NCBI GenBank assembly: GCA_028293625.1
Contig: JAQGOL010000025.1
Location: forward strand, 372,001-436,000
Reading direction: 5' to 3'
Length of the DNA: 64,000 bases
From: Chthoniobacteraceae bacterium
GTDB taxonomy: Bacteria; Verrucomicrobiota; Verrucomicrobiia; Chthoniobacterales; Chthoniobacteraceae
The notes beneath the pieces were generated by a model. It searched no databases, had not been told where the DNA came from, and saw only the letters and a program-made list of their open reading frames with translations. Below are positions 28,201-54,359 of this stretch, piece by piece; position 1 is the first letter of the stretch, and every line of letters starts with the position of its first letter. Position numbers and translations under genes: made by a program.

Positions 28201-29977
28201 TCAGGTTGTTGGCCATGAAGTTCACGTTATCGGTGAGATCCTTCCATGTTCCGGCAACGCCTTGCACTTCCGCCTGGCCGCCCAGTTTGCCTTCCGTGCC
28301 CACTTCCCTCGCCACCCGGGTCACTTCCGCCGCGAACGCGTTCAGCTGATCGACCATCGTGTTGATGGTGTTTTTTAACTCCAGGATTTCCCCTTTTACT
28401 TCCACCGTGATCTTGCTTGAAAGGTCGCCCTTCGCGATGGCCGTCGCCACGTCGGCAATGTTGCGGACCTGGCCGGTCAGATTCGACGCCATTGAATTGA
28501 CGTTGTCGGTCAGATCCTTCCATGTGCCGCCGACCCCGGGCACAATCGCCTGGCCGCCCAGCTTGCCTTCAGTCCCCACTTCCCTTGCCACCCGGGTCAC
28601 TTCCGAGGCAAACGCATTGAGCTGATCAACCATCGTGTTGATGGTATCCTTGAGCTCCAGAATCTCACCCTTCACATCAACGGTGATTTTCCGGGAAAGA
28701 TCGCCGCGTGCGACCGCTGTCGTCACGTCGGCAATGTTGCGCACCTGCCCCGTCAGATTCGATGCCATCGAATTAACTGAGTCGGTCAGATCCTTCCATG
28801 TTCCCGCCACCCCAGCCACCGCAGCCTGGCCGCCCAGTTTGCCTTCCGTGCCGACTTCCCTCGCCACCCGGGTCACTTCCGCCGCAAACGCATTCAGCTG
28901 ATCGACCATCGTGTTGATGGTTTCCTTCAGCTCAAGGATTTCGCCTTTTACATCAACGGTGATTTTCCGGGAAAGATCGCCGCGCGCCACGGCAGTCGTC
29001 ACGGCCGCGATGTTGCGGACCTGGGCGGTCAGATTGGAAGCCATCGCGTTGACCGAATCGGTCAGATCCTTCCAGGTGCCGGCAACGCCCGGGACGACAG
29101 CCTGCCCGCCAAGCCGTCCTTCGGTGCCGACCTCGCGCGCGACGCGGGTGACTTCGGAAGCAAACGAGCGCAGCTGATCGACCATGGTGTTGATCGCTTC
29201 CTTGAGCTGCAGAATTTCGCCGCGCACATCGACCGTGATCTTTTTGGACAGATCGCCGTTGGCGACCGCGATTGTGACGTCGACAATATTGCGCACCTGC
29301 GCGGTCAGATTGCCGGCCATTTGATTGACGCTCTCAGTCAGCTCCTTCCAAACACCAGAGACACCTTTGACTTGCGCCTGGCCACCCAGCTTCCCTTCTG
29401 TGCCCACTTCCCGCGCCACCCGGGTCACTTCGGAGGTGAACACCGAGAGCTGCTCAATCATCAGGTTGACCAGCTTTGCGGAATGTAAAAACTCCCCCTC
29501 CAGCGGGCGGCCATCGACTTCGAGCGCCATCGACTGGCTCAGATCGCCCTTGGCCACGGCGCCGATGGTGCGGGTCACTTCGGTGGTAGGCGAGACAAGA
29601 TCGTCCATGAGCACGTTCATCGCATCGATCTCGTCGGCCCATTCCCCCACCAATCCCGCCACACGCATCCGTTGCTTAAGCTTCCCTTCTTTTCCCACCA
29701 GGCGCGAGACCCGCATTGTCTCCTCCGCCCGGCGTTTGCTCATGCCTAAAACGTCGTTAAAAGCGTCCGCTATTTTTCCATACAAACCGGTCCAGCCAAC
29801 CGGCAGCTGCACGGAAAAATCGCCGCGCCGGTAAGCGAGCATGGCCTCGAGGATAGCCAACGGCACATCTTTCTCAGCCACATCGCTAAACTCCGCAGAG
29901 CCGCCGCGCAATGGCTCGCCAAACCCATTTGGAGCTGCGGTTTCTGACACGGCGGCCGAAGAATCTGGGGTGTTCAT
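22280..29977 (-). CDS. Giant soluble poly-HAMP hybrid histidine kinase with three receivers
   Basis: A 2565-aa protein with no predicted membrane helix. After a divergent N-terminal HAMP region (about 45-227) come fifteen 92-residue units (228-1607), each with [24 protein letters not shown] and [28 protein letters not shown], that is, two HAMP-like halves per unit. A partial unit leads into a GAF domain (about 1650-1800), a Gln/Glu-rich coiled coil, HisKA with H1901 ([10 protein letters not shown]), HATPase ([26 protein letters not shown]), and three receivers starting near 2175, 2296 and 2445. The layout resembles group III fungal kinases (Nik1/Os1), which carry far fewer HAMP repeats, and large bacterial soluble HAMP kinases. 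It is first in an operon with the hybrid kinase at 19621. Confidence 0.95.
25157..29296 (-). repeat. Fifteen in-frame 276-bp tandem repeats encoding HAMP pairs
   Basis: The coding strand contains fifteen consecutive 276-bp units with no insertion or deletion: residues 228-1607 divide exactly into 15 x 92. Protein identity between central units is very high, while many third codon positions differ, as in the alternating GATCC/GATCT and GCC/GCG versions of the TWKDLTD segment. Units fall into subtypes ([28 protein letters not shown]) arranged in partly repeating order. The last unit (1516-1607, [16 protein letters not shown]) is the most divergent. Confidence 0.95.
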
Positions 29978-32184: not shown

Positions 32185-32427
32185 GGGGAAGCCGCACCCT
32201 ACCGGCAGGATGAGCACGCGACAAGGGCGAGCAACGCAGACTTTTCCAGGAATTTTGGCAGCAGGCGCGGGGTGGGCCGGGAGCGCAAAGCAAACCCGTG
32301 AAATACCCGGTCAATGTGGAAAATGAATATGAATCGGTGCGGCGTATCTCGCTCTATGGGCTGGCGTTACCGCGGAAGTGCGCTTTTTTTCCTCCGCTCC
32401 GATCTTCACCCCCGCTCCCCTTTATCC

Positions 32428-35400
32428 ATGCCTACCCGCTCCCTGTTTCGCCCCGTTCTTGCCGGATCCATCGCCTCGTTGCTCCTGGCAAGCTACAGTC
32501 ACGCCGCGGATGGCACCTGGCTCGGCGCCCCAACCAATTCGAACTGGAGCAATGCCGCTTTCTGGCAAAACGGGGTCATCGCCGACGGAATCAACGCCAC
32601 TGCGTATCTGGTTTTTGATCCGATCGCCGATGCGGACCTGACCCGGGGTGCCAACGTGACTCTTGATTCGAGCCGCACCCTTGGAAACATTTACTTTGGA
32701 GACGTCGATGGACTTGGATCGTCGAGTCTGGGCCTTTTTCCCGCCAACGGCAGCACGCTTACCCTGCAAACCAGCGGGGCCACGCCGATTATTGAGGCTA
32801 ACCTGCTTTTGAACAACTCAATCAACGGCAAAAAAGCGATCTTCAACGCCAACCTTACGCTGGCTGGCACCCAAGGTTTTAACAAAACCGGGCTCGGTTA
32901 TTTTTCGCTGCGCAATCCGGTAACAATGAGCGGCGCCATCGGCGTGCTGGGTGGGACGCTCGATACAAGGACAGTTTTAAACAACGACATTACTGTCTCA
33001 GGCGGCAGCTTAAGCCTTGATTTCGCCAATTTCACCGGCACCAACGACATCATTAATAGCAGCCGCACCCTGACGCTTGGCGGCGTGAACGGAAGCGGTG
33101 CTGTGACCACGGCTTCAAAGGCGGCGGTGCTCTCGCAAAGCCTGGCTGGGCTCACATTGAATGCCGGCGCAAACAGCATCCAGGCGGCCGCCAACAGCGC
33201 GGCCAATACTTTTACCTGGAACCTCGGCACCATCACCCGCAACAACGGCAGCGCGCTCAATCTTTTCGGGGCAAACAGCTTTAATTTCCAATTCACCTCG
33301 GGCGGATCGGTGCAGGGCAACGATTCCGGCGGAATTGTCGGGGGCTGGCTCACTTTTAACTCAAACGATTGGGGCCGGGTAAACGGCGCGGCTATTACCG
33401 CGGCGGGCGTGCCTTATACCAACAACGCCTGGGGCTTCGGCCTCAACACCACCGTCAACGCAGTCAACTTCCCGAGCGTTGCCGGTGCGACGACTCAGAC
33501 GGATGCCTTCACGCATACTCTGCGTTTTCAGGATGCCAATGCGCGTTTTTTAACACTGACCGGCACCAACACGATTGAAACCGGCGGCCTCCTTTTCGGC
33601 AATGCCGGCAATGCAATGCATCAGCTCAATGGCGGCGCAATCACCTCCGGAAGTGGCGACCTGATTATTCACGGCTACAGCACGGGCGGCGGCTGGGGCG
33701 TCCTCATCAATTCCGACATTGTCGACAACGGTGCTCCCGTGCAGCTGGTCAAAGCGGGCACGGGCAATGTGGTGCTCGATGGCGACAAGACTTTCACCGG
33801 AGGAACAGTTCTCGGCCAGGGAACGCTGGTTTTGGGCAAGGCGCTGGGCGGTTCCGCAACGGGATCGGTAACGGGCAATATTGTGAACAGCGGCGTCCTC
33901 GCCTTCAACCGAAGCGGCAGCTATACGCCGGGCAACACGATCACCGGCAACGGAGTGATTGCGCAATGGTCCGACGGCACGCTCGTCCTTAATAAGAGCG
34001 TTTCGTCCGGCGGCCTCAATTTGCAGAACGGCACGACCATCCTCGACTTTACCGGGGCTGCCGCGCCGCAAAACAACATCGTGCCGGCCGGCGTGCAAAC
34101 GGGCACCGGCCTTTGGACCGACGGCAGCCGGCTGACCTTGCGCGACGCCACCCTTGGCATCGTCGGGAAGCCCGGCGTCAATCATAACCAGACGTTTGCG
34201 CTCACGGACCTGCAAGGCTCCAGCTCGCTCAACTTGCAGCCGGGCAGCGGCGGCACGGTGACAATCAACCTTGGCGCCTACAATCGTCCCAACAATTCCA
34301 ACGATGGCGCCGGCACTTTGAAAATCACGCTCCCGGCCGGCGCGACAGTGGCCGTCATGCCGAGTTTTCCAGGCGCGGCCAGTGGACTTGTCCAGGATAA
34401 CGGGCAGGCTTTTGTCACTGTCAACGGCACCGATTGGGGCGCGAAGAACGCGGCCAATACCCAGATTATCTCAGGCAGCGATCTGGCTGGCGGGACATTT
34501 TACACGCCGCTCAGCGCGCTGACAAACGGCTCCAATGCCAATTACGACGTCGATACGACGGTTAGCGTCAACACGACGCTTGCGAGTCTTCGTTTTCATA
34601 ATGTGCCCACCACGGCCACATTGAATATCAATGCCGGCCAACAGATCTTCGTGGGCGGACTGCTTATCTCCTCCAATGCGCTGGCCGCCACGCAGATCAC
34701 CGGCGAAGGCTCAATCAGTGCCGCCAATACCGGGGGACGTGATCTGCCGGTTTTCCAAAACAGCGCGCAGCCGCTGACCATCAGCGCGGTGGTGGCAGAC
34801 AATGCCGCCGGCCAGATCACCAATCTGATCAAGGAAGGGATTGGCGAGTTGATCCTGAGCGCGACGAATACGTTTACCGGTAAAACCTATGTACAGGGCG
34901 GCACCCTCCGTCTGACCGGTGGCGGCATCGGCGCCGTGACCCCAGCCGGCAACATTTTCATCCGGGAAGGCGAGATGCGCCTTGAGAACAGCGCGGTGGT
35001 CAATACCGGCGGCAATTTTATCTCCATTGGAGAGCGCCTCGGTGAAACCGGCACGCTGACCTTGAGGGATAGTTCAAGCTGGACCACCACGGGCGATTTC
35101 AACGTCTCCGATGTGAACTCCACGGGCATCCTCAATGTGCGGGACAATGCGCTGCTGAATGCCACCAACTTCTTTGTCGGCAAAGTCGGCGCTTCGGTGG
35201 GCATCGTGAATTTTTCCGGCGGCACGATCGCCATCAATGGCGGCGGCGGCGATGTGCGCATCGGTGGAATTAATTCAAGCGACACACTGGCCCAGGGGAC
35301 CATTAACCAAAGCGGTGGCACTTTTCTGGTGAACCGCAACTTCCAGCTCGGCGCAAACGGAGTCGGCACTTACAACCATAGCGAAGGGACTTTTCAATCA

Positions 35401-37617
35401 ACCGCGGGCTTTACCGTTCTTGGACGTTTTGTCAGCGGCCAGGGCACATGGAACCTGAGCGGCGGCACCATTGACACAAGCGCCCCGGCGGCGGGCGCAG
35501 CGGTGATCATCGGCGAGGAAGGTTCCGGCACATTAAATGTGAGCGGCACCGGCAACGTGATCGCGAGGGACCTCAGCGTCGGCCACAACAACGGCGTGGG
35601 TGAGATCAACCAAACCGGCGGCACGGTGAACCTCACCGATATCGGAGTGGCCGCGGGGCTTAACTACGCGCAGGCCGGTGTCGTCCTTGGCGGCGGGGCG
35701 CTCGGCAACATCAACAACTCGGGCGGCACGTACCGGCTTGGCGGCGGCACGCTGAATACCAACGCCATCACCCGCGCGGTGGGCCGCGGTGACTTTGTTT
35801 TTAACGGCGGCACGCTGCGTCCGATCACAACGAACACGGCCTTCATGCAGGGGCTTACTTCCGCCACCGTGCGCGCGGGCGGCGCCATCATCGACACAGG
35901 CGGCAACGACATCAACATCGGCCAGAGCCTCAGTCATGATGAGGCCCTCGGCGCCACACGCGACGGCGGACTCACCAAGATCGGCGCCGGCACTCTTTCA
36001 CTTCACGGCGCAAACAGTTACACGGGCGCCACGACCATCAGCGCCGGCACCCTTAAACTTGCTCCAAGTGAAGCCGCTGCGGTTTGGGATGCCAGCACCC
36101 TGACAGGGGCCGATGGCACTTCAGTCGGCACATGGACCGACAGCGTCGGATTCAAAAACGCCGCGCAGGCCACTGCCGGAAACCAGCCGCAGCTCATCAA
36201 TGGCTCGCTGAACGGTCATAATGTTCTGCATTTTGAAGGGTCCGCCTCACAGAGCCTTGTCGTGGCCAATACGGACAGTGCCATCTCAGCCAACTCGAGC
36301 TTTACGATCGCCGTCGTGGTGCGCACTCCCAATACCGGCGTGGGCGGCGCGGCGCAATGGTGGAGCAATACAGGCATTGTCGATGCCGAGATCGCCAACG
36401 GGAACAACGATTGGGGTCTTGGTTACAATGGAAACGGCAGTGTCTCCGGCGGCCTCGGCAGCTTTGGAAATGATCAGACCCTTTACTCCTCCACCGGGAT
36501 TTCCGACGGGAATGCGCATGTCCTCCTTCTGAGTGTTAATAATGGAACCATCCAGCTCGCGGTCGACGGCGTCACCGAGACGTTGGGAACCTCCAATATC
36601 GGCGCCCGCGCCCTCAACCAATTCCGCATCGGCGGCATTTCCACCGGCTCCAATTTTTTCACGGGCGATATTGCCGAGGTGCAACTCTTCCGCAGTGGAA
36701 TGAGCGGAGCCGCATTGAGCGCGGCCGGTCAGCAACTGGCCACAAAATACGGATTGACCGGCACCTATTCCAAAGTCTCGGATTTCCTGCCGGACGCTTC
36801 CAATGTCAACCTCGCCGCCGCCGGAGCGACCCTTGATCTCAACGGCTTTTCGGAAACAGTCGGCTCGTTGAGCGGCGTCGCGGGAAGCATCGTCGCGCTG
36901 AGCGGCGGCACGCTGACCGTGGGCGCCGACAATAGTTCAACCAGCTTTGGAGGAAGCATCAGCGGGGCCGGCACACTGGCAAAGAGCGGCACTGGCAATT
37001 TCACGCTCGGCGCGGGATCCACGGCGGCGCCGGCGGGCGGCACGCTCATCGACGGCGGCCGATTGCTTGTAAACGGCAGCTTGTCGGGCTCGGTGGCAGT
37101 CCACAGCGGCGGCTCGCTCGGTGGCTCCGGAACGATCACCACTAATGGCGGCTCCGCGATCGTCGCCCTCGGTGGCACGCTCGCTCCTGGTGCCTCGGCG
37201 GCCGGCAATCTTACCGTGATCTTGGGAGGCGGAGAGCTCGACCTTGGCGCGGCCCTCGCCCCGCTTGCTTCGGGCGCGTTGCTCTTTGAACTCGGCAGCC
37301 TCGCCGTAAGCGACAAAGTCACCTTGAGCGGCGGCTCACTTAACATCGGCAGCGGTCTCCTCGAGTTTGATGACTTCGCCTTCACCCAGCTCGCCGGCTT
37401 CGCTCCCGGCACCTACACGCTCTTTGACGGCAACAGCTCAATCGTCGGCACGCTCGGCGCCAGCCAATCCGGGGTGATCGGCAATTTCCTGGGAGATCTC
37501 AGTTTCGCCGATGGCGGCCGCGACCTCATCCTGACGGTCGCGGTGCCTGAGCCCGGCACCCTCGTTTCACTGCTGGGCGGCCTCGGGATTCTCGCCCTGC
37601 GGCGCCGGCGGCGGTAA
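32428..37617 (+). CDS. Giant PEP-CTERM protein with autotransporter-type beta-strand repeats and a LamG-like domain
   Basis: A 1729-aa protein. The ATG at 32428 opens a signal peptide (FRPVLAGSIASLLLASYSHAAD); in-frame codons back to 32314 look non-coding. Most of the protein is a right-handed beta-solenoid of autotransporter-associated strand repeats: LVKAGTGNVVLDGDKTFTGGT (about 455), LIKEGIGELILSATNTFTGKT (about 805) and LTKIGAGTLSLHGANSYTGAT (about 1185). A laminin-G/concanavalin-like domain is inserted near 1215-1455, starting VWDASTLTGADGTSVGTW. The end is VPEPGTLVSLLGGLGILALRRRRR, a PEP-CTERM signal instead of an autotransporter barrel. It is probably a long surface fibre or adhesin that may bind glycans. 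A strong terminator hairpin follows. Confidence 0.92.
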   Translation: MPTRSLFRPVLAGSIASLLLASYSHAADGTWLGAPTNSNWSNAAFWQNGVIADGINATAYLVFDPIADADLTRGANVTLDSSRTLGNIYFGDVDGLGSSSLGLFPANGSTLTLQTSGATPIIEANLLLNNSINGKKAIFNANLTLAGTQGFNKTGLGYFSLRNPVTMSGAIGVLGGTLDTRTVLNNDITVSGGSLSLDFANFTGTNDIINSSRTLTLGGVNGSGAVTTASKAAVLSQSLAGLTLNAGANSIQAAANSAANTFTWNLGTITRNNGSALNLFGANSFNFQFTSGGSVQGNDSGGIVGGWLTFNSNDWGRVNGAAITAAGVPYTNNAWGFGLNTTVNAVNFPSVAGATTQTDAFTHTLRFQDANARFLTLTGTNTIETGGLLFGNAGNAMHQLNGGAITSGSGDLIIHGYSTGGGWGVLINSDIVDNGAPVQLVKAGTGNVVLDGDKTFTGGTVLGQGTLVLGKALGGSATGSVTGNIVNSGVLAFNRSGSYTPGNTITGNGVIAQWSDGTLVLNKSVSSGGLNLQNGTTILDFTGAAAPQNNIVPAGVQTGTGLWTDGSRLTLRDATLGIVGKPGVNHNQTFALTDLQGSSSLNLQPGSGGTVTINLGAYNRPNNSNDGAGTLKITLPAGATVAVMPSFPGAASGLVQDNGQAFVTVNGTDWGAKNAANTQIISGSDLAGGTFYTPLSALTNGSNANYDVDTTVSVNTTLASLRFHNVPTTATLNINAGQQIFVGGLLISSNALAATQITGEGSISAANTGGRDLPVFQNSAQPLTISAVVADNAAGQITNLIKEGIGELILSATNTFTGKTYVQGGTLRLTGGGIGAVTPAGNIFIREGEMRLENSAVVNTGGNFISIGERLGETGTLTLRDSSSWTTTGDFNVSDVNSTGILNVRDNALLNATNFFVGKVGASVGIVNFSGGTIAINGGGGDVRIGGINSSDTLAQGTINQSGGTFLVNRNFQLGANGVGTYNHSEGTFQSTAGFTVLGRFVSGQGTWNLSGGTIDTSAPAAGAAVIIGEEGSGTLNVSGTGNVIARDLSVGHNNGVGEINQTGGTVNLTDIGVAAGLNYAQAGVVLGGGALGNINNSGGTYRLGGGTLNTNAITRAVGRGDFVFNGGTLRPITTNTAFMQGLTSATVRAGGAIIDTGGNDINIGQSLSHDEALGATRDGGLTKIGAGTLSLHGANSYTGATTISAGTLKLAPSEAAAVWDASTLTGADGTSVGTWTDSVGFKNAAQATAGNQPQLINGSLNGHNVLHFEGSASQSLVVANTDSAISANSSFTIAVVVRTPNTGVGGAAQWWSNTGIVDAEIANGNNDWGLGYNGNGSVSGGLGSFGNDQTLYSSTGISDGNAHVLLLSVNNGTIQLAVDGVTETLGTSNIGARALNQFRIGGISTGSNFFTGDIAEVQLFRSGMSGAALSAAGQQLATKYGLTGTYSKVSDFLPDASNVNLAAAGATLDLNGFSETVGSLSGVAGSIVALSGGTLTVGADNSSTSFGGSISGAGTLAKSGTGNFTLGAGSTAAPAGGTLIDGGRLLVNGSLSGSVAVHSGGSLGGSGTITTNGGSAIVALGGTLAPGASAAGNLTVILGGGELDLGAALAPLASGALLFELGSLAVSDKVTLSGGSLNIGSGLLEFDDFAFTQLAGFAPGTYTLFDGNSSIVGTLGASQSGVIGNFLGDLSFADGGRDLILTVAVPEPGTLVSLLGGLGILALRRRRR

Positions 37618-46331: not shown

Positions 46332-49079
46332 CTACGAATTGCGCATGATCAGGCGGACGGCGTCGAGCCGAAGGCGCGATCCGGCAAGCGCGGCCTGAAG
46401 CTCGGCTTTCTGCAGCCTGGCGGCTTCAATTTCGGCGGGCCGGACGTGATCATTAATTTCGCGGAGCACTTCCAATCGCTCGATCTCGCCCTGCAATTGC
46501 GTCTCCAACACAACGGAGGCGGCGGCGACAATCTCCACCATTTTCTCACCGGCAATCGCCTGCGCTTTTTCAAGCATCGTCGGCAGGAACTTCTTCTTTA
46601 CCACCGCGCGATCGAGCAGCTTGAAGATGTCGCCTTTTTCCAATTGAGCCACTTTGAAAGCCGCGTCGTCGGAGAGATCCTGGAGCTCGTGGTTGACGAC
46701 AACCCGCACCGGCGTGGCGGGCAGGAACCGGTCAGCGTGCAACGCGGCGGGAGCGACACATTCCACCACGCAATAAGCCTCCAGCATCATCGCTTCTTTG
46801 CCGGAGCCTTTCCATACGCCAAAACAGGCGTTGCCGGCTTCGGCGCCGAGCAGCAGATCGAGCGCGCCGCTGAGGAGCGGATGATCAGCGCTCATAAACC
46901 CAAGATCTTCCCGGCTCAAAGCGCGCGTACGATCGAAGGTGACTGACATTCCCTCCTCGGGCAGTGAAGGAAATGCGTCCGTGAGAAGATGGCCGGGCTG
47001 CAGCAGATAAGTGCGGTTGCCTCCGCCGAGATCCTCCACGTTCACGCCAAAATGATCCATGAGCCCAACAAAGAACTCTTCAAATGAATCATCGGCGTCC
47101 CGGGCGCGAATCTCGTTGACCATGAGCGCGGCCTGCTCGGGCCGGCAGGAGTTGAGTTCAAGCAGCCGATCGTGGCCGCGTTCGAGTTTCCTGGCGACCT
47201 GGCCGTGGTGCTCCTTGGAACGCTTGAGAAACGCGGTCAGCTTTCTTGCGTTAAAACTCTCGAGCAAGGGGTGCAGCTCTTTTTCGAGTGCTTTTGCAAT
47301 CTCATCGGCGCCGTGCAGGTTTTTCTCAAACGCGTTGAGGCCTTCGTGATACCAGCGGGCAAGCACCTCGGATTCGCTCCCCTGGATATAAGGAACATGG
47401 ATCTGGATTGTCGCCCGCTGTCCGATTCGATCGAGACGGCCGATGCGTTGTTCCAGGAGCTCGGGGTTGGCTGGCAGATCAAAAAGAACAAGGTGATGCG
47501 CAAACTGGAAGTTGCGTCCTTCACTTCCAATTTCCGAACAGATCAGGATGCGGGCGCCTTCTTCTTCGGCAAAGAACGCGGCGTTGCGGTCGCGCTGCAT
47601 CAGGGTAAGCCCTTCATGAAAGAGGGCGCAGCTCACGCTCATTTCGCGCTGCAAACGTTCGGAGAGTTGTTCGACCATTTCGCGCGTCTTGCAGATCAAA
47701 AGGATTTTGGCGTCTTCATGCTCTTTTAACAAAGCAGCGAGCCATTTTACCTTGAGCACCATCGGATCGGCTTCTTTCGCCAATTTTAATGGCGAAAGAT
47801 TGGCGCGGCGTTCAGGGAATCCCGATAAGGCGGCACGCGTATTGCGAAACATGACGCGGCCCGTGCCAAACGCATCGAGCAACTCCTTCACCAGATGTTT
47901 GCGCGCTTTTTCATCCCCGGCCATCAACTCTTCGCAATGCCGCCGGATACGCTCCGATTTTGCTCCAAAAAGAGCCTGATCAGCAGCGGTCACAGGCTTG
48001 CCGTCGATCACCCGGTCAATCGCTTTTGCGACCTGTTCATAATGATCGGCTTCCTCTAAAAACTGAGCCAGATCCGAGTACCGATCCGGATCAAGGAGAC
48101 GCAACCGTGCAAAATGGCTTTCGGGTCCAAGTTGCTGCGGCGTGGCGGTAAGCAGGAGCAGACCGGGCGTCCTGACAGCGAGTGCATCGACGAGCGCATA
48201 CTGCGGGCTGACATTTTCCGCGCTCCATTCAAGGTGATGCGCTTCATCGACAACCAGCAGATCCCAGCCGGCTGCGAGGAGCTGGGCGGCCCGGTCCGGA
48301 TTCCGGGAAAGGAACTCGATGCTGCCAATCACAAGCTGGCTGTCGAGGAACGGATTCGCCTCGGGATCATTGAGCTGAATCGACTCGCAGCGTTCCAGAT
48401 CGAATATGCTGAAGAGCAGATTAAAGCGGCGCCAGAGTTCGATAAACCATTGATGGATCAACGGTTCAGGCACGAGGATCAGGATCCGCTCGGCGCGACC
48501 GGTCAAATGAAGCCGGTGCAAAATGAGGCCGGCCTCGATCGTTTTGCCCAAGCCGACTTCGTCCGCCAAAAGGACACGCGGCACCAGTCGGGAGGCCACT
48601 TCGCCGGCGATAAACATCTGATGCGCCAGCAGATCGACCCGGCCGCCAAGAAAACCGCGCACCGGGCTTTGGCGCATTTTGCTGCGGCGCGAAAGCGCGT
48701 CAACGCGGAGGTTAAACGTCTCAATCTCATCGATCTGCCCGCCGAATAACCGGTCCTCGGGCTTGCTGAAGCTGATCAAATCGGAGAGCTCCGCCTCGGC
48801 CACTTCGCGTCCCGGCGTGAGATAGACAAGCAGCCCGGCGCGTTCCTCCACCGATTCGACCACCATTTGCGCGCCATCGTGGGACTTGATGCGGTCGCCT
48901 TCCTTGAAAACAACGCGGCGCAGCGGAGCTGATTCCAAGGCGTACTTGCGATGTTCGGTCGCTGCGGGGAAGAAGACTTCCACCCTGCCGAACTCCGTTT
49001 TGAGAAGGATGCCGAGGCCGAGTTCGGGCTCGGTATCGCTCACCCATCGTTGACCTGGCACTGGCTTACCGGTTTGCAT
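46332..49079 (-). CDS. rapA: RapA-like SNF2-family ATPase (RNA polymerase recycling)
   Basis: A 915-aa protein starting at ATG 49079, where MQTGKPVPGQRWVSDTEPELGLG matches the RapA N-terminus (PGQRWISD.E.ELGLG). Two Tudor-like beta regions (to about 110) are followed by the SNF2 helicase core: ADEVGLGK179TIEAG (Walker A), VVDEAHHLEW (motif II, DEAH, near 275), LLTATPQQLGPESHF (motif III), ICSEIGSEGRNFQFAHHLVLFDLPANPELLEQRIGRLDRIGQ (motifs V-VI). The C-terminal region matches RapA length and ends in a coiled helix. RapA uses ATP to release RNA polymerase from stalled complexes, best known in gammaproteobacteria. It is convergent with the ETR1-like kinase. Confidence 0.92.
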   Translation of the reverse strand: MQTGKPVPGQRWVSDTEPELGLGILLKTEFGRVEVFFPAATEHRKYALESAPLRRVVFKEGDRIKSHDGAQMVVESVEERAGLLVYLTPGREVAEAELSDLISFSKPEDRLFGGQIDEIETFNLRVDALSRRSKMRQSPVRGFLGGRVDLLAHQMFIAGEVASRLVPRVLLADEVGLGKTIEAGLILHRLHLTGRAERILILVPEPLIHQWFIELWRRFNLLFSIFDLERCESIQLNDPEANPFLDSQLVIGSIEFLSRNPDRAAQLLAAGWDLLVVDEAHHLEWSAENVSPQYALVDALAVRTPGLLLLTATPQQLGPESHFARLRLLDPDRYSDLAQFLEEADHYEQVAKAIDRVIDGKPVTAADQALFGAKSERIRRHCEELMAGDEKARKHLVKELLDAFGTGRVMFRNTRAALSGFPERRANLSPLKLAKEADPMVLKVKWLAALLKEHEDAKILLICKTREMVEQLSERLQREMSVSCALFHEGLTLMQRDRNAAFFAEEEGARILICSEIGSEGRNFQFAHHLVLFDLPANPELLEQRIGRLDRIGQRATIQIHVPYIQGSESEVLARWYHEGLNAFEKNLHGADEIAKALEKELHPLLESFNARKLTAFLKRSKEHHGQVARKLERGHDRLLELNSCRPEQAALMVNEIRARDADDSFEEFFVGLMDHFGVNVEDLGGGNRTYLLQPGHLLTDAFPSLPEEGMSVTFDRTRALSREDLGFMSADHPLLSGALDLLLGAEAGNACFGVWKGSGKEAMMLEAYCVVECVAPAALHADRFLPATPVRVVVNHELQDLSDDAAFKVAQLEKGDIFKLLDRAVVKKKFLPTMLEKAQAIAGEKMVEIVAAASVVLETQLQGEIERLEVLREINDHVRPAEIEAARLQKAELQAALAGSRLRLDAVRLIMRNS

Positions 49080-49283
49080 AAAAGGGCGACTAGCCTCTAC
49101 CAATGGGCCGGGTTCGTGCAAAGGCTTTCGGTGCCTCAATGCAGAGGTTTTTTTAAATGTCAAAACGGCAGTGACCGTATTGAACACCACATTACATTCA
49201 TCGTGCCTTTAATCGACGGGACCAATGGATCATCCGGCGGGAAGGCGTCTACAAAACAAAAGCAACGTTCCGCGCTTCAAAGC

Positions 49284-50096
49284 TTAGCGGCGGCCGGAGA
49301 GCGCCGCGGCATACGTGCGCTCGATCGCGGCAATGGAACCGCCCGCATCGCCATACAACGAGTCGTCCAACAGATGGCTTGCAAGCGCGATATCGGCGGA
49401 AATCGTCCCGGCACTTCCGCGGCTTCCTGCGTTTTCGATCGCCAGATCGATCTGCGCCTCAATCCGCGCGAGATCACTTTCCATTTCCTCGAGCGACTCG
49501 GCGCGCCGCTCCAGGTTGGCCAGGCGTTCCTCCAAAATACGCAGGGTCGCCTGCTTCGATTCCCGTAAAGAGGACGATATCTTTTCAGATCCAAGCGATT
49601 TGATCGCCGCGTCGATTTTCCCCACCAACTCCGCCTCGTTTGCGCGGGAGTCGATGGCGGCGAGGTTTTGCTGCGCAATCAGAAGTTTTAGATAAAGCCA
49701 ACAAAGCTTCCCCAACGCCTCCCGGTTACTTTCAATCACGAACTCTTCAGACTGCAGTTCATGATGAATCTGGAGTATCTGCGCGCAACGCCCTTCAAGC
49801 AATTGGAGCCGGTCGCGCCGCTCGATGGAAAGCTTGTCGATCAAAGCGCTTCTTTGTTCCATCAGCGTGCCTGATTGAATTGTTACTTCCCCGGCATCGA
49901 CCAATTGCTGGAAGCGACGGCTGGAGATTACTGCATACAGATAGGCGCCTTCCATCGCCAGCCCAAGCAGCCAGAAACCCGGATGCCCGAACCCGAGGAT
50001 TGCCAGGCCGGCGCACGCCAGCGCGTTGAAGGGGACCCGTCCGAGACCGGGGACAATCGGGGCAATCCAGAAGGCGGTTTTTAAGTAGCGAACCAC
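49284..50096 (-). CDS. Membrane protein with long coiled-coil domain, third gene of the SBP/vWA operon
   Basis: A 270-aa protein if translation starts at the GTG at 50096, seven bases after the preceding stop; longer frames extend to 50216 but overlap that gene. Two hydrophobic segments lie near the N-terminus (FNALACAGLAILGFG, then PGFWLLGLAMEGAYLYAVI), followed by a long charged, heptad-rich region (ALIDKLSIERRDRLQLLEGR, RILEERLANLERRAESLEEME). I do not recognise the family; membrane plus coiled-coil architecture loosely recalls XpaC/TelA or PspA-type envelope proteins. Its place in an operon with two substrate-binding-domain proteins suggests a role in transmitting or anchoring their signal. 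The start codon is uncertain. Confidence 0.65.
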   Translation of the reverse strand: MVRYLKTAFWIAPIVPGLGRVPFNALACAGLAILGFGHPGFWLLGLAMEGAYLYAVISSRRFQQLVDAGEVTIQSGTLMEQRSALIDKLSIERRDRLQLLEGRCAQILQIHHELQSEEFVIESNREALGKLCWLYLKLLIAQQNLAAIDSRANEAELVGKIDAAIKSLGSEKISSSLRESKQATLRILEERLANLERRAESLEEMESDLARIEAQIDLAIENAGSRGSAGTISADIALASHLLDDSLYGDAGGSIAAIERTYAAALSGRR

Positions 50097-50103
50097 GGCT
50101 GTT

Positions 50104-51291
50104 TCATCGGGCGCTGCGCTGCCAGATGACGAGAAGATTGTTAATGACGTCGGCGCTGGGCGATTCGCTTGTGCTGGCGATATCCACTTGGAGGCCGAAC
50201 TTTCCGTATAAAACAAATGGACTCTCAGAGAACTTGATCGGGATGGCCGGGTTGGCGGGACGAAAGCCGTGCTTGAGCGATTCTTTCTGGATCGGTTCGC
50301 TCAACAGGAAGTTAAGGAACTCATCGGCTGCCGCGCGTTGTTGCGGTCCGCTCCAGGGCGTGTCGAGAATATAGTAAGGATTGTCATTCCATATATTCTG
50401 GGTGGGATAGATGATTTTAAGTTCACCCCAGCGGCCCTCCGCGTTTTTGAGGTAATCAATCGCGACGTTTTCATAGACAAAAAGCGCGTCGTAGGAGGAA
50501 GGCCCCCGCAGCACCATGTCGCGCATCATATTTCCAGTGCTGTTGGAAAGGCCGGTCACCGCTTTTTCAATGGAGAGCATCCAGGTTTGGAAAGCAGGAT
50601 CGAGGATATCCTTTAAAGCCAGGCCGCGGTTTTTTTTGTGGTAGTCATCCGCCATCAGCAACAGCGTCATCAAGCCGCTGTTGGATTGATTGGGATGGGT
50701 ATGGCCGAACTTGAACACGCCCCACTCCGGCCTTTTTGCGATGGCATTCCAACCGCCCGGCTCCCCGAGCGCCTCGCCGATCGTCTTGAATGAAACCTCG
50801 CTGTATTTCTTCAGGAACGCCTCATACCGTTCCGCCCACATGACAAACACCATAGGGGTGAGCGCCAGCGATTCTTCCCGGAGAACGGGCTGCTTGTTAT
50901 GGTTAAGGTTCCACTCGCGCACAAATACGTCCTTGTAAGCGCCGCTTGCCGGACTCCAGACATTGATCCGTGAATCGCCGCCGAGCACGGCCTGCGCTGC
51001 TTCCACCGAGCCAAGGGGAATCAGGTTTACTTTAATCCCGCGTCCTTCCTTGCTTGATGCAAACTGTTCAGTGGCCCATGTCAGCCATCGCTGCTTTTCG
51101 GTGCCATAAGCGATGCCGATTTCAATGCCCTTTCCATTCTCCAAACGCGCGCCGGAACCCGTGACCAGGCCGGCATTGGAACTTCCAAGCGGTTTTCCAG
51201 CGAACATTGCATAAGCGCAGTATGCGCACGCCCCGATGAAGAGGAAGACAACGAGCTTTCCGATAAAGGTAAGCCTGGGATTTTCTGACAT
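50104..51291 (-). CDS. Membrane-anchored substrate-binding-domain protein
   Basis: A 395-aa protein with an N-terminal membrane anchor (FIGKLVVFLFIGACAYCAYAMFA). The rest is a periplasmic binding protein type II fold of the SBP_bac_11 kind: GIEIGIAYGTEKQRWLTWATEQF, INVWSPASGAY, ALTPMVFVMWAERYEAF, WGVFKFGHTHPNQSNSGLMTL, YENVAIDYL and FLLSEPIQKESLKHGFRPA. The same motifs occur in the first 370 residues of the upstream gene's product. Its start lies two bases after that stop. No ABC permease or ATPase gene is nearby, so it is unlikely to feed a local transporter; a sensing or assembly role is inferred. Confidence 0.8.
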   Translation of the reverse strand: MSENPRLTFIGKLVVFLFIGACAYCAYAMFAGKPLGSSNAGLVTGSGARLENGKGIEIGIAYGTEKQRWLTWATEQFASSKEGRGIKVNLIPLGSVEAAQAVLGGDSRINVWSPASGAYKDVFVREWNLNHNKQPVLREESLALTPMVFVMWAERYEAFLKKYSEVSFKTIGEALGEPGGWNAIAKRPEWGVFKFGHTHPNQSNSGLMTLLLMADDYHKKNRGLALKDILDPAFQTWMLSIEKAVTGLSNSTGNMMRDMVLRGPSSYDALFVYENVAIDYLKNAEGRWGELKIIYPTQNIWNDNPYYILDTPWSGPQQRAAADEFLNFLLSEPIQKESLKHGFRPANPAIPIKFSESPFVLYGKFGLQVDIASTSESPSADVINNLLVIWQRSAR

Positions 51292-51293
51292 AA

Positions 51294-52961
51294 TTAGAAG
51301 AAAGTGGCGATCTCTTTGAATACCTCGCGGATGTTCTGCGGGTTGCCTTCGTAGAAGCGTGCCTGGGTCGCGTCGGCTATCTTCTTAAGCACTTCTTTCT
51401 GAGCTTCGGCATCGTATCCGATCGTAAAGACACGGATTGAACTATTCTCGTTATCCGAACGAATCTGTTTAAGAAGCGCGTCGAGCTTGATCGAGCTATT
51501 GGTATCCGCGCCGTCGGTAAGCACCACGATGGCTGAGATTTTGCCCGAACCTTTTGATACTTGAATCTGTTTGGCGAAGGTCCTTGAAATCGCATCGTAA
51601 AGGGCGGTGCCGCCGGCGGGAAATAGCGATTCAATCTGGCGTTGAGACTGGTCGCGGATCTGTTTAAGCGGCGCGGAGTTGCCGACAGAAAGAACAGTCT
51701 GGCTAAATGGCACGAGCAGGAATGAATCCTCGTCATCAAGGAGCCTGAGCAATTCCAAGGCGCCAACGCGCGCGCTCGAGATGCGATTATTTTCCTTCAT
51801 GCTTCCCGAGGTGTCGAACACGAGCGCGATATCGGAATGCTTCTTATTGGCACGCCAAAGCCCAACAATGGCGTCCATGATCTCCGGCGTGGGAACTTCC
51901 AAAGTTGTCTTCGGTTCGCGAGGATCAATCCCGTGCGCGACGTCCAAAGGCGCACGAAGCGGCACGTCGACGGCCGCGGGACGGAACCCGAACTCCATCG
52001 CTTTTTCCTGCTGCGGTCTGGCAAGCAGATAGGCGATATAAATTTTTGCGGCTTCCTTCTGTTCGGCGGTTACCCAGTCGCCTTGCACAATACCGACCGG
52101 GTGATCCGTCCAGAAAGCGCCTTCCTTGGGATAAAGCGCCACGATTGGAAATGGCATCTGATATTTGGGCAAATACGACTCGATGACCATGTTCTCGTAG
52201 AGCACCGAAGCACTGAGATACTCCGGTCCGTTGGCAAACATCTTCTTGCCGAAGAAGCCGGTGGAGCTGCCGTAATGAACCACCGATTTTTCGATGGAAG
52301 ATAGAAAGGCCGCGGTCTTTTCAATATCGTGCTGGTTCAAGCCGGAGGTTTTGCCGCTGGCGGCGTAGACTTCGGCAAAGAGCGAAATAAGTCCGCTGTT
52401 GCTAAACTGCGGATGCGTATGGCCGAACTTGAATTGGCCCCATTGGGGATAACCATGCGCCGCCCATCCCTGCTCGTTGGTTGCAAGCGCCAGGATGTCG
52501 CTCCAGCCAACCGGCTTCTTCCCCCAACCTATCGCCTCGGCCATCGGTTTCCACATCGCGATGACCACCGGGGAAAGCAGAAGGTTCTCGGTCGGGCCTA
52601 TCAAATCCCTGCCATTGCGAGCACGCGCCCGGGCGTTGCCGGACTGGATAAATGCGGCCGAAGCCGGACTTGCCAGGTGCGCCTGGGAAACGCCGCTTAA
52701 AAGATCATCAATCAATTCACCTGATCCTTTGGCAACGGCTTCCACGTAGACTGATTTGCCCGATGCTGTCCTGGAGCCGAGCCGGTTGAACTCAACAGTT
52801 ACCGCCTTGACCCAATCCTCTTTTTCCGAGCCGTAAGTAAAAAGGAGCTTCAGCGCGCCGGCGGGAACTTCGTCTTTTGAAACATCGGGCGCTTTGCCAC
52901 AGGAAACCAAACCAAGGAGGAGCAGGAGCCACCAAAGGGAACCGCGAAAGGGCGCTTTCAC
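51294..52961 (-). CDS. Lipoprotein fusing a substrate-binding domain to a von Willebrand A domain
   Basis: A 555-aa protein from a GTG at 52961. The N-terminus WWLLLLLGLVSC21GK is a lipoprotein signal with the lipid-bearing Cys at 21. Residues 35-365 form a binding-protein fold (LLFTYGSEKEDWVKAVTVEFN, LASPASAAFIQ, WGQFKFGHTHPQFSNSGLISL, YENMVIESYL, KAMEFGFRPA). Residues 385-555 form a vWA domain with a complete MIDAS metal site: DTSGS in ALVFDTSGSM, the Thr of PAGGTALYDA and the Asp of VVLTDGADTNSS. The vWA domain probably binds a partner protein through Mg2+. It is the first gene of a three-gene operon, translationally coupled to its paralogue. The combination is unusual for a transporter component. 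Confidence 0.85.
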   Translation of the reverse strand: MKAPFRGSLWWLLLLLGLVSCGKAPDVSKDEVPAGALKLLFTYGSEKEDWVKAVTVEFNRLGSRTASGKSVYVEAVAKGSGELIDDLLSGVSQAHLASPASAAFIQSGNARARARNGRDLIGPTENLLLSPVVIAMWKPMAEAIGWGKKPVGWSDILALATNEQGWAAHGYPQWGQFKFGHTHPQFSNSGLISLFAEVYAASGKTSGLNQHDIEKTAAFLSSIEKSVVHYGSSTGFFGKKMFANGPEYLSASVLYENMVIESYLPKYQMPFPIVALYPKEGAFWTDHPVGIVQGDWVTAEQKEAAKIYIAYLLARPQQEKAMEFGFRPAAVDVPLRAPLDVAHGIDPREPKTTLEVPTPEIMDAIVGLWRANKKHSDIALVFDTSGSMKENNRISSARVGALELLRLLDDEDSFLLVPFSQTVLSVGNSAPLKQIRDQSQRQIESLFPAGGTALYDAISRTFAKQIQVSKGSGKISAIVVLTDGADTNSSIKLDALLKQIRSDNENSSIRVFTIGYDAEAQKEVLKKIADATQARFYEGNPQNIREVFKEIATFF

Positions 52962-53077: not shown

Positions 53078-53656
53078 TTATTCGTTGTAGAACTCACGGA
53101 TCACGCGGCCGAACGTTTCCATTGGTAATCCAACTACATTGCTAAAGGAACCCTCCACACTCTCAATTATCTCACCATTATCGTCCTGCGCGGCGTATGC
53201 ACCTGCCTTGTCCAGGGGACCAATGCGTTGCAGATAAGCGCGGCGGCCTTCCGCGGAGAGCACTCGAAACCGGACTTGAGTTACTTCTATAAATGCGCGC
53301 TCCTGCCCGCTGGAACGGCGGATTAATGAGACGCCTGAAAAGACCGCATGCGCACGGCCATTGAGCTCGGAGAGCATCCGCTCGGCTTCAGGCATATCGG
53401 CGGGTTTACCAAAGATGCGTCCTTCAAAAGCGACCAATGTATCCACCCCTACAACAAGGTTGCCGGGATACTTGGAAGCAAGCGCACTGGCTTTAAGCCG
53501 CGCATTATACAGCACCGTCTCGCCCGGCGAAAAATGGGGCGGCGCCACCTCGATGACATCAGCCGGCTCGACCCGAAACTCGTAATCATGCTCTGCAAGC
53601 AGATCACGGCGTCTCGGCGAGGCGGAAGCGAGGATAAAGGGAGGACGCTTTAACAA
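53078..53656 (-). CDS. maf: Maf family nucleotide pyrophosphatase
   Basis: A 192-aa protein with a TTG start proposed at 53656, giving the usual Maf opening FILASASPRRRDLL directly. Another TTG is at 53674, and no ATG lies between the upstream stop and this motif; a much longer frame overlaps the upstream gene by about 90 bases and is less likely. Family motifs are clear: S-x-S-P-R-R (SASPRRR), VGVDTLVAFEGRIFGKPAD, and GPLDKAGAYAAQDDNGEIIESVEGSFSNVVGLPME. Maf proteins hydrolyse dTTP/UTP or modified nucleotides to monophosphates and affect septum formation. It is the last gene of a minus-strand run with the DUF4412-like and aldo/keto reductase genes. Confidence 0.9.
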   Translation of the reverse strand: MLKRPPFILASASPRRRDLLAEHDYEFRVEPADVIEVAPPHFSPGETVLYNARLKASALASKYPGNLVVGVDTLVAFEGRIFGKPADMPEAERMLSELNGRAHAVFSGVSLIRRSSGQERAFIEVTQVRFRVLSAEGRRAYLQRIGPLDKAGAYAAQDDNGEIIESVEGSFSNVVGLPMETFGRVIREFYNE

Positions 53657-53684
53657 GGCAAGTGAAGCTGACAAGGGTGGATCG

Positions 53685-54359
53685 CTATTTTCCGATTGGG
53701 AAGTTGAATGACGGACTAGGCAATTCTTTATAGTCCACGGGAACTGTGAAAAGAGCGGCGTCGAGATTTTGGTCACTTACCGAAACCAGCGTGGTAGTCA
53801 CTTTTTGTCCGTTAATCAGCATCTCGGTCTTCATCACCATACCGGGAAAATCGTTCGGCCGTGGTGTCATTTGAAGAGAAAGCGCGGCGAGTCCCGAGTT
53901 AAGACACTTTTCCATCGCCGCCGAGATCGCCGCGTAGTTGGGGTAATCGCGCGCGACCCAGTAAGTGGCACTCACCCCGGTCCCATTCCAGGTAAATACC
54001 TCGCACTCGCGATTCTCGATTTTTTCCTTTTTCCCGTTTGAAACGAGCTTTGGAAGATCGGCTCCCTTCGGTCCGGTTTTCTGGCGTTTTTGCATTTCCG
54101 CCGTCAACGCCTGGGTGCTTTCGGCAGGAATCCGCATGAACCCTTTTTTGACATGCATCAGAGTAATAACCTCCCCGGTGGCGCCATCGGTAATCGTGCT
54201 CATCTCAGGAGCCACATCGGCGCGTGCCTTGGACTCCTTGAATTTCAAGGTCATCGTCCCCGACTGCATCGACCCCTCCACTTTCTGGACGATCACAAAA
54301 TCGGCATGGGCAAGCAAACCACCTGCAAGCAAAAAGAGAGGGAAAAGAACGGATTTCAT
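53685..54359 (-). CDS. Secreted DUF4412-like protein
   Basis: A 224-aa protein. The start at 54359 has AGGA eight bases upstream; an ATG three codons earlier (54368) is also possible. It carries a signal peptide (SVLFPLFLLAGGLLAHAD). The body alternates strands (FVIVQKVEGSMQSGTMTLKF, YWVARDYPNYAAISAAME, MVMKTEMLINGQKVTTTLVSV) and resembles the DUF4412 group of outer-membrane-lipoprotein-like (LolA-fold) beta proteins, with an N-terminal strand, KKGFMRIPAES and ending VPVDYKELPSPSF. The function is unknown. It lies between an aldo/keto reductase (17 bp gap) and maf (29 bp gap). Confidence 0.7.
   Translation of the reverse strand: MKSVLFPLFLLAGGLLAHADFVIVQKVEGSMQSGTMTLKFKESKARADVAPEMSTITDGATGEVITLMHVKKGFMRIPAESTQALTAEMQKRQKTGPKGADLPKLVSNGKKEKIENRECEVFTWNGTGVSATYWVARDYPNYAAISAAMEKCLNSGLAALSLQMTPRPNDFPGMVMKTEMLINGQKVTTTLVSVSDQNLDAALFTVPVDYKELPSPSFNFPIGK

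Follow-up and report, generated by a model that had tools for sequence, protein, structure and literature searches.

A substrate-binding/vWA lipoprotein, an anchored substrate-binding paralogue and a membrane coil protein encoded together in a Chthoniobacteraceae genome: a candidate sensor module of a PspA/AAA-type envelope system

The three genes and their products

The locus considered here lies in a stretch of 64,000 nucleotides, called the window throughout, from contig JAQGOL010000025.1 of a Chthoniobacteraceae bacterium (assembly GCA_028293625.1), whose genome comprises 6.83 Mb in 43 contigs. It consists of three minus-strand open reading frames (ORFs), A, B and C, separated by gaps of 2 bases (A/B) and 7 bases (B/C). 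The initial annotation had described two binding-fold proteins and a membrane coil protein in tight spacing, with neither a permease nor an ATPase. The trio is real as described, and the ORFs beside it, judged by reading, likewise include no permease or ABC ATPase.

Table 1. Window coordinates of the three genes and of features in their products
Feature	Coordinates	Strand	Size and basis
Gene A, substrate-binding domain fused to vWA, lipoprotein-like	51294..52961	-	555 aa, GTG start; AlphaFold2 model
A signal peptide, ending at lipobox-type Cys21	52899..52961	-	sequence and hydropathy
A substrate-binding domain, residues 34-376	51834..52862	-	fold comparison of model
A vWA domain, residues 377-546, complete metal site	51324..51833	-	Pfam, alignment, fold comparison (4fx5, Z 24.5)
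Gene B, substrate-binding paralogue anchored in the membrane at its N-terminus	50104..51291	-	395 aa; Pfam, hydropathy
B single hydrophobic anchor, residues 13-31	51199..51255	-	hydropathy, Kyte-Doolittle (KD) 2.2
Gene C, hydrophobic N-terminus and long helical rod	49284..50096	-	270 aa, GTG start; AlphaFold2 model
C hydrophobic region, about residues 18-58, probable hairpin with basic residues on both sides	49923..50045	-	model and hydropathy
C helical rod, residues 60-225, conserved R..SLEEI.SDL.RIEAQ.DLA	49422..49919	-	alignment and model

The product of A matches Pfam VWA (E 2.5e-11) as well as SBP_bac_8/SBP_bac_11. Its N-terminus carries the motif LVSC, read from the sequence, which we take to be a lipobox. 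The AlphaFold2 model is confident (mean pLDDT 89.2, pTM 0.84). Its substrate-binding protein (SBP) domain matches the folds 5um2 (Z 28.4, 298 aligned residues, root mean square deviation 3.2), 2qry (Z 28.0), 1sbp (Z 27.8) and 8x1a (Z 26.0), and the first nine rows of the search span Z 25 to 28, 268 to 298 residues and 13 to 18% identity. The closest solved folds include binding proteins for sulfate, thiamin and hexose phosphate; polyamine- and ferric-binding proteins come next. This series of folds suggests an oxyanion or phospho-compound as the putative ligand. A further match (Z 25.5) is 6lkg, titled a two-component signalling protein, which we take to be HptA.

All residues of the metal ion-dependent adhesion site (MIDAS) are present in A (D383, S385, S387, T452 and D483), and the site is complete in 77 of 79 scorable proteins (81 aligned, namely the window's A and the 80 loci introduced below, 2 of them not scorable). 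This bears out the earlier claim of an intact site, and the vWA domain may use a bound metal ion to grip a partner. In L041 and L057, where the operon is A-PspA-AAA, two residues of the MIDAS are replaced (S387 by N, T452 by A or C). PspA and AAA are kept there while B and C are missing from the operon, a combination that would fit a role of the MIDAS in meeting B or C. The second protein, B, matches Pfam SBP_bac_11 (E 1.6e-13). Neither A nor B has an OmpA domain match in Pfam.

The third protein, C, has no convincing family match in Pfam, NCBIfam or PADLOC, and its PADLOC matches to LmuB (E 0.005) and Csm5 (E 0.007) are taken as coiled-coil noise. Its start codon is at or near the same position in most C homologues. 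One segment of C (residues 18-36, KD 1.49) exceeds the hydropathy threshold also used for B, and at the same threshold 6 of 12 C-family proteins show two segments. Because of these two-segment homologues and the two helices of the model (23-35 and 39-58), a membrane hairpin at the N-terminus is likely; on a positive-inside reading, the rod would be cytosolic. The AlphaFold2 model of C is moderate (mean pLDDT 75.8) and has no Foldseek match below E 0.001. The matches listed by a second fold search (VIA-align) are BAR-domain proteins, stalk proteins of type IV secretion and designed helical proteins, with Z below 9, the common helical range; PspA, Vipp1 and ESCRT-III are not among these matches, which excludes nothing. 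None of the 12 C-family proteins has a Snf7 or PspA hit at E<=1. An identity of C with XpaC was ruled out, as these proteins have no XpaC hit at E<=1 either.

Recurrence of the gene order

A search for B in 147 genomes, the window's own included, gave a match in 19, three of which carry the trio (the window's genome, G013 and G086). A profile of six A proteins run against genome contigs gave 145 confirmed places, the best 80 of which were kept. In counts of genomes, duplicate entries (L040=G013, L048 and L087=G086, L041=G059, L057=G107, L115=G097) are counted once, and the taxon names of other loci are the submitters' labels of metagenome-assembled genomes, which may be wrong. The search for the three-gene order that the initial annotation had proposed found A-B-C in 12 distinct genomes (the window's, G446, L039, L040, L043, L045, L048, L050, L053, L054, L056 and L060). 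In L039 and L043 the operon is extended to A-B-PspA-C-AAA. Nine Chloroflexota loci (L062, L063, L065-L069, L071 and L111) have the order B-A-coil, and A-coil is found in L082, L109 and the Verrucomicrobiota locus L087. Another group has A followed by a short transmembrane (TM)-coil protein (c2). The remaining loci show A-B, B-A or A without a recognised coil partner, or their contig ends too early.

Across the 12 trio loci the matrices of pairwise distances for the three proteins are correlated (Mantel r 0.79 for A-B, 0.87 for A-C and 0.66 for B-C). None of 5000 permutations reached the observed r for any pair, with shared species history contributing to the correlation. Given the recurrence in 12 genomes and the correlated distances, the gene order is more than chance. 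Co-inheritance, on which the earlier reading depended, holds well inside one lineage group without being universal: Chloroflexota relatives show B-A-coil or A-coil, and A-B alone is found in some others.

A quick tree built from 39 A proteins groups the window's A with those of L040 and G446, and then with those of the A-PspA-AAA and five-gene loci (supports 92, 93 and 84, none starred); the trio label overall is scattered in the tree. This grouping places the window's trio close to operons holding PspA and AAA. The trio may have lost PspA and AAA, or the other operons may have gained them.

Of the 71 loci that extend 900 bases or more downstream, 28 encode in their operon chain a partner that passes a generic test for an N-terminal hydrophobic segment plus a charged helix; among background genes, 14 of 442 pass. 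The 43 loci that fail include L050 and L054, whose true C homologues were missed by this crude rule. In L054 (7579-14544) the trio is flanked by genes reading as gapdh, pgk and tpiA, which gives the impression of an insertion into a glycolytic operon.

The coil protein of the Chloroflexota loci (c1) and C are likely related, to judge from profile comparison (hhalign probability 95, E 3.3e-8). The single-sequence matches between them are weak (L043 3.2e-4, L040 2.8e-3, L045 0.012, others listed 0.07 to 0.9) against shuffled sequences that reach 0.039 and 0.25 in the same search, so that the kinship falls short of certain. The TM-coil proteins of L037, L160, L161 and L204 have no match to the C or c1 profile at E<=1.

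The trio has the substrate-binding fold expected of an ABC transporter; its operon includes neither a permease nor an ABC ATPase. Around A, a profile of four ABC proteins found a same-strand ABC ATPase-like gene within 6 kb in 3 of the 80 loci (L051, L069 and, weakly at E 3e-5, L055) and an opposite-strand one in 4 more (L071, L080, L104 and L111), several loci ending short. Orthologues of A thus do not regularly sit beside ABC transporter genes, in keeping with the initial annotation.

Two of these loci carry further genes of note, with labels that here, as in L068, were read from the sequence. In the Chloroflexota locus L069 (4341-12355), SBP-like, two permease-like and ABC genes in a pst-like order lie directly upstream of B-A-coil. 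A GPP34-like protein is also encoded upstream, and another follows the coil in L068. In L051 (6527-12761), A-B is immediately preceded by phosphonate-metabolism genes (PhnL-, PhnM- and PhnP-like), which again hint at ligands of the phosphate type.

C homologues beside PspA-like and AAA proteins

The window's own genome contains a paralogous operon (C22:7263-15164) of seven same-strand genes, encoding a vWA protein, a PspA-like protein, a periplasmic binding protein (PBP)-OmpA protein, a permease, an ABC ATPase, a C homologue and an AAA protein. The vWA protein (256 aa) is secreted-looking and carries DTSGS, the permease is of the BPD_transp_1 family, and the C homologue and the AAA protein have 313 and 583 aa. 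The C homologue matches C at E 2.1e-6 (phmmer) and the C profile at E 4.3e-65, its own row being included in the profile. The PBP part is assigned by a weak NMT1 match (16.6 bits against a cut-off of 20.5).

In a phylum sample of 387 genomes the C profile matched 13 places in 11 genomes. At the 11 C places outside trios, where genes were called by a crude ORF caller and L180 starts at a contig end, PBP-OmpA is found at 9, AAA at 7 (the C22 operon and L175-L180), a PspA-like gene at 6, an ABC ATPase at 5 and a called permease at 3. A vWA-type gene with the DTSGS motif precedes PspA at 5 of the 6 PspA-like places. The transporter part is dispensable, as neither an ABC ATPase nor a permease was called at 5 of the 9 places with PBP-OmpA and C (L177, L179, L181, L182 and L183, which represent few genera). 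The initial annotation's proposal of an envelope system instead of a transporter is supported, and the few ABC genes near A agree with it. For C the picture is modified, as its homologues share operons with PspA and an AAA ATPase and 5 of its 11 non-trio places adjoin an ABC ATPase.

These surroundings raise the alternative that A and B are capture heads delivering a solute to a permease and ABC ATPase encoded elsewhere, for example in the C22 operon, with C serving to dock them. The SBP domain of A is nearest to true transport SBPs, the same genome has a C homologue within an ABC operon with PBP-OmpA, and L069 and L051 follow a pst-like operon and phosphonate-type genes, respectively. Against this, same-strand ABC ATPase-like genes are rare near A, two SBPs of which one is fused to vWA form an unusual layout, and more than half of the PBP-OmpA places with C manage without a called transporter; we regard this explanation as rather unlikely.

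An AAA protein (profile A7, E<=1e-60) was found in 17 of the 387 phylum genomes. It is present in every one of the 11 genomes that have C and in 6 of the 376 that lack it, 2 of these 6 matches being partial. Fisher's test, which ignores kinship, gives 2e-17, and by genus the counts are 9 of 9 versus 5 of 189. A PspA-like protein (profile A5, E<=1e-20) was found in 16 of the 387 genomes, 10 of the 11 with C and 6 of the 376 without. At E<=1e-30 an AAA match is present in all 12 trio genomes (G000, G013, G086, G446 and the genomes of L039, L043, L045, L050, L053, L054, L056 and L060), 9 of which contributed no row to A7; the match in L050 is partial (profile residues 9-163, near a contig end, E 4.8e-36). 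All 4 trio genomes searched have a PspA-like protein, and in L039 and L043 it lies inside the operon. Among three A-B genomes without C, AAA is found in one (L051, not L042 or L046).

The PspA/AAA operons of L039, L043, L041 and L057, the tree position, the C22 operon and the co-occurrence of C with AAA are counted in favour of reading the trio as the periplasmic sensor plus membrane adaptor of an envelope-remodelling system of the PspA/AAA type. We give this interpretation about an even chance. Several observations weigh against it. The window's operon has no PspA-like or AAA gene beside the trio, both being found elsewhere in the genome. C has no significant fold match, and its comparison with a PspA profile (hhalign) gives a probability of 0.6 percent. 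The C22 PspA-like protein scores 16.6 bits with PspA_IM30, below the Pfam cut-off of 33.9, and is linked to the family by a match (E 1.4e-5) to the PspA of L034, which is itself above that cut-off. The eight rows of A7 (G000, G059, L039, L043, G307, G231, G189 and G515) include three from trio genomes and five from C-bearing phylum genomes, one being in both, so that the C/AAA association is partly built in. Genomes with AAA away from C and no A7 row (G319, G375, G392 and G446) represent only two genera (g70 and g76). Among 14 family members without the trio, picked from relatives, AAA is found in 2 and a PspA-like protein in 3. No AAA match at 1e-30 was obtained in the A-bearing, trio-less genomes G229, G020 and G049, nor in any of 15 further genomes with A, 14 from Chloroflexota and 1 from Myxococcales. 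A is therefore not AAA-dependent everywhere, and outside AAA genomes the A-B head may drive other effectors.

Proposed function and relation to known systems

The trio is best read as the outside and membrane portion of a PspA/AAA remodelling system, in which a vWA domain is fused to a binding protein and no transporter is involved. The chain that the locus proposes would run from an outside ligand pocket in A and B through the membrane protein C to PspA and AAA. The lipoprotein A and the anchored B would capture, on the outer side of the inner membrane, a small ligand that is probably an oxyanion or phospho-compound, and the MIDAS of A may contact a partner in a metal-dependent manner. The hairpin and cytosolic rod of C would relay the ligand-bound or stressed state to the PspA-like protein, a membrane-binding polymer that the AAA ATPase would remodel. 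In the window's genome the PspA-like and AAA proteins would be drawn from elsewhere, most likely from the C22 operon. We infer this order of events, with A and B outside, C across the membrane and PspA and AAA inside, from topology and neighbourhood. If confirmed, a binding protein kept without permease or ABC ATPase would clearly exemplify the conversion of a transporter component into a sensor. A precedent for an SBP-like sensor partner is HptA-HptS, where a secreted binding protein senses glucose-6-phosphate and signals via a membrane protein; it differs in its histidine kinase output and has no vWA, PspA or AAA (PMC8774646). More broadly, and with somewhat less than an even chance, vWA-fused transporter-type binding proteins may form an exchangeable outside sensor head (A-B) which, with a dedicated rod (C), controls an ESCRT-III/Vps4-like PspA-AAA machine, head and rod alike being attached to TelA or other effectors in other phyla.

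The initial annotation had seen in C a loose likeness to XpaC/TelA-type envelope-stress proteins. TelA (PF05816) has 0 matches in the window's genome, with 3 of 14 control genomes positive, and a TelA encoded elsewhere in that genome was thereby ruled out. For more distant relatives the hint does hold, since two SBP-vWA operons (L037 and Variovorax) contain TelA. A row in G020 consists of an anchored protein of 388 aa, TelA, SBP-vWA and a TM-coil protein, the last without a C-profile match at E<=1. In Variovorax, TelA is accompanied by a protein annotated as 'substrate-binding and VWA domain-containing protein', which shares just 24 percent identity with A, and by a protein of 208 aa. The latter hits the C profile at E 5.8e-6 (Z 1000), the best of 900 shuffled sequences reaching 0.039. 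This operon resembles the window's trio in its SBP-vWA and its small TM-coil protein, and differs in having TelA as the cytosolic partner.

The G020 and Variovorax rows would suit a TelA/XpaC-like system of toxic-anion or envelope-stress resistance from which TelA was lost, with C replacing the adaptor and a toxic oxyanion as ligand. Such an origin is improbable, given the lack of TelA in the window's genome and of XpaC matches in the C family, the unmatched TM-coil protein of G020 and the pairing of close relatives with PspA/AAA instead. In the window's genome the trio is not an XpaC/TelA system. On the Variovorax plasmid (L206, 2136-10962) a Wadjet JetA family gene lies about 2.4 kb past the C-like gene of the TelA, SBP-vWA, C-like row.

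MoxR-type AAA+/vWA pairs are known, and the trio might by analogy be a metal-dependent assembly factor in which the vWA domain works with the AAA ATPase to mature a membrane complex. The MIDAS, intact in 77 of the 79 scorable proteins, and the common operons of AAA and vWA genes in L039 and L043 are consistent with this. However, A looks like an exported lipoprotein and the AAA protein, by reading, shows no signal peptide, so that the two would be on opposite sides of the membrane, and L041 and L057 keep PspA and AAA despite two altered MIDAS residues. This makes an assembly factor quite improbable. As vWA domains frequently bind ligands in adhesion, a surface adhesion or cell-wall attachment module may also be considered, in which vWA grips an extracellular partner and the SBPs are structural; the paralogous C22 operon does encode an OmpA peptidoglycan-binding domain. 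Against this, the SBP motifs are strongly conserved across the aligned A proteins (the search pattern itself preselected part of one motif), and the PspA/AAA link would be left unexplained; an adhesion module is very improbable.

The individual parts of the trio are already known or annotated, and the product name quoted above for Variovorax exists in public records. The classical PspA-PspB-PspC and LiaI-LiaF systems provide PspA-centred membrane protection with a membrane adaptor. The trio differs from them in having an SBP/vWA pair as sensor, with no match to PspB, PspC or Toastrack among its Pfam hits.

A survey of PspA/Snf7 operons from 2024 reportedly has Ravi as first author. In that survey, PspA and TM-bearing Snf7 homologues occur with a double AAA, an ABC ATPase, a permease and PBPB-OmpA (PMC11237479), and the C family may be these Snf7 homologues. 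The operons resemble that of C22 in combining a PspA-like protein, AAA and a periplasmic solute-binding component, and C22 also holds the C homologue. The window's operon differs in having no PspA, AAA, ABC ATPase or permease, in the fusion of vWA to SBP and in a second anchored SBP in place of PBP-OmpA; the OmpA peptidoglycan-binding domain is absent from A and B and present in C22. The terms 'vWA' and 'SBP' have 0 occurrences in the main text of the survey.

Among the literature matches listed, none describes SBP-vWA, SBP and C on a PspA/AAA system, and nothing relevant was found on vWA or SBP with TelA/XpaC, or on PspA with TelA, AAA and vWA. Systems of FtsZl1, vWA and OmpA were reportedly predicted by Makarova and Koonin in 2010. 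In the text covered, these are similar in joining vWA and an OmpA-type protein to a cytosolic polymer with proposed membrane remodelling, and differ in that the polymer is tubulin-like and that no SBP, PspA or C-type protein appears (PMC2875224). Components of the phage shock protein system outside Proteobacteria are described in the survey as not well characterized, and the control of assembly by some PspA homologues as open (PMC11237479). If the proposed reading of the trio is right, the locus would add a further version to a poorly understood family of bacterial envelope systems.

Upstream of the trio, on the same strand, lies a gene for a Maf-type protein (53078-53776, sequence read by eye). 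Sites found in a promoter and terminator scan did not exceed those in shuffled sequence (2 versus 2.2 and 6 versus 5.6). The downstream neighbour is a minus-strand ORF of 952 aa encoding an SNF2-type helicase (46332-49190), with partial PADLOC matches to BrxHI/II (E 2.4e-55), DpdE (E 7.2e-55) and DrmD; both a RapA-like housekeeping role and one in defence are conceivable for this helicase. Elsewhere, the window contains very long ORFs of 1718, 2565 and 1767 aa (13139-18295, 22280-29977 and 32314-37617).

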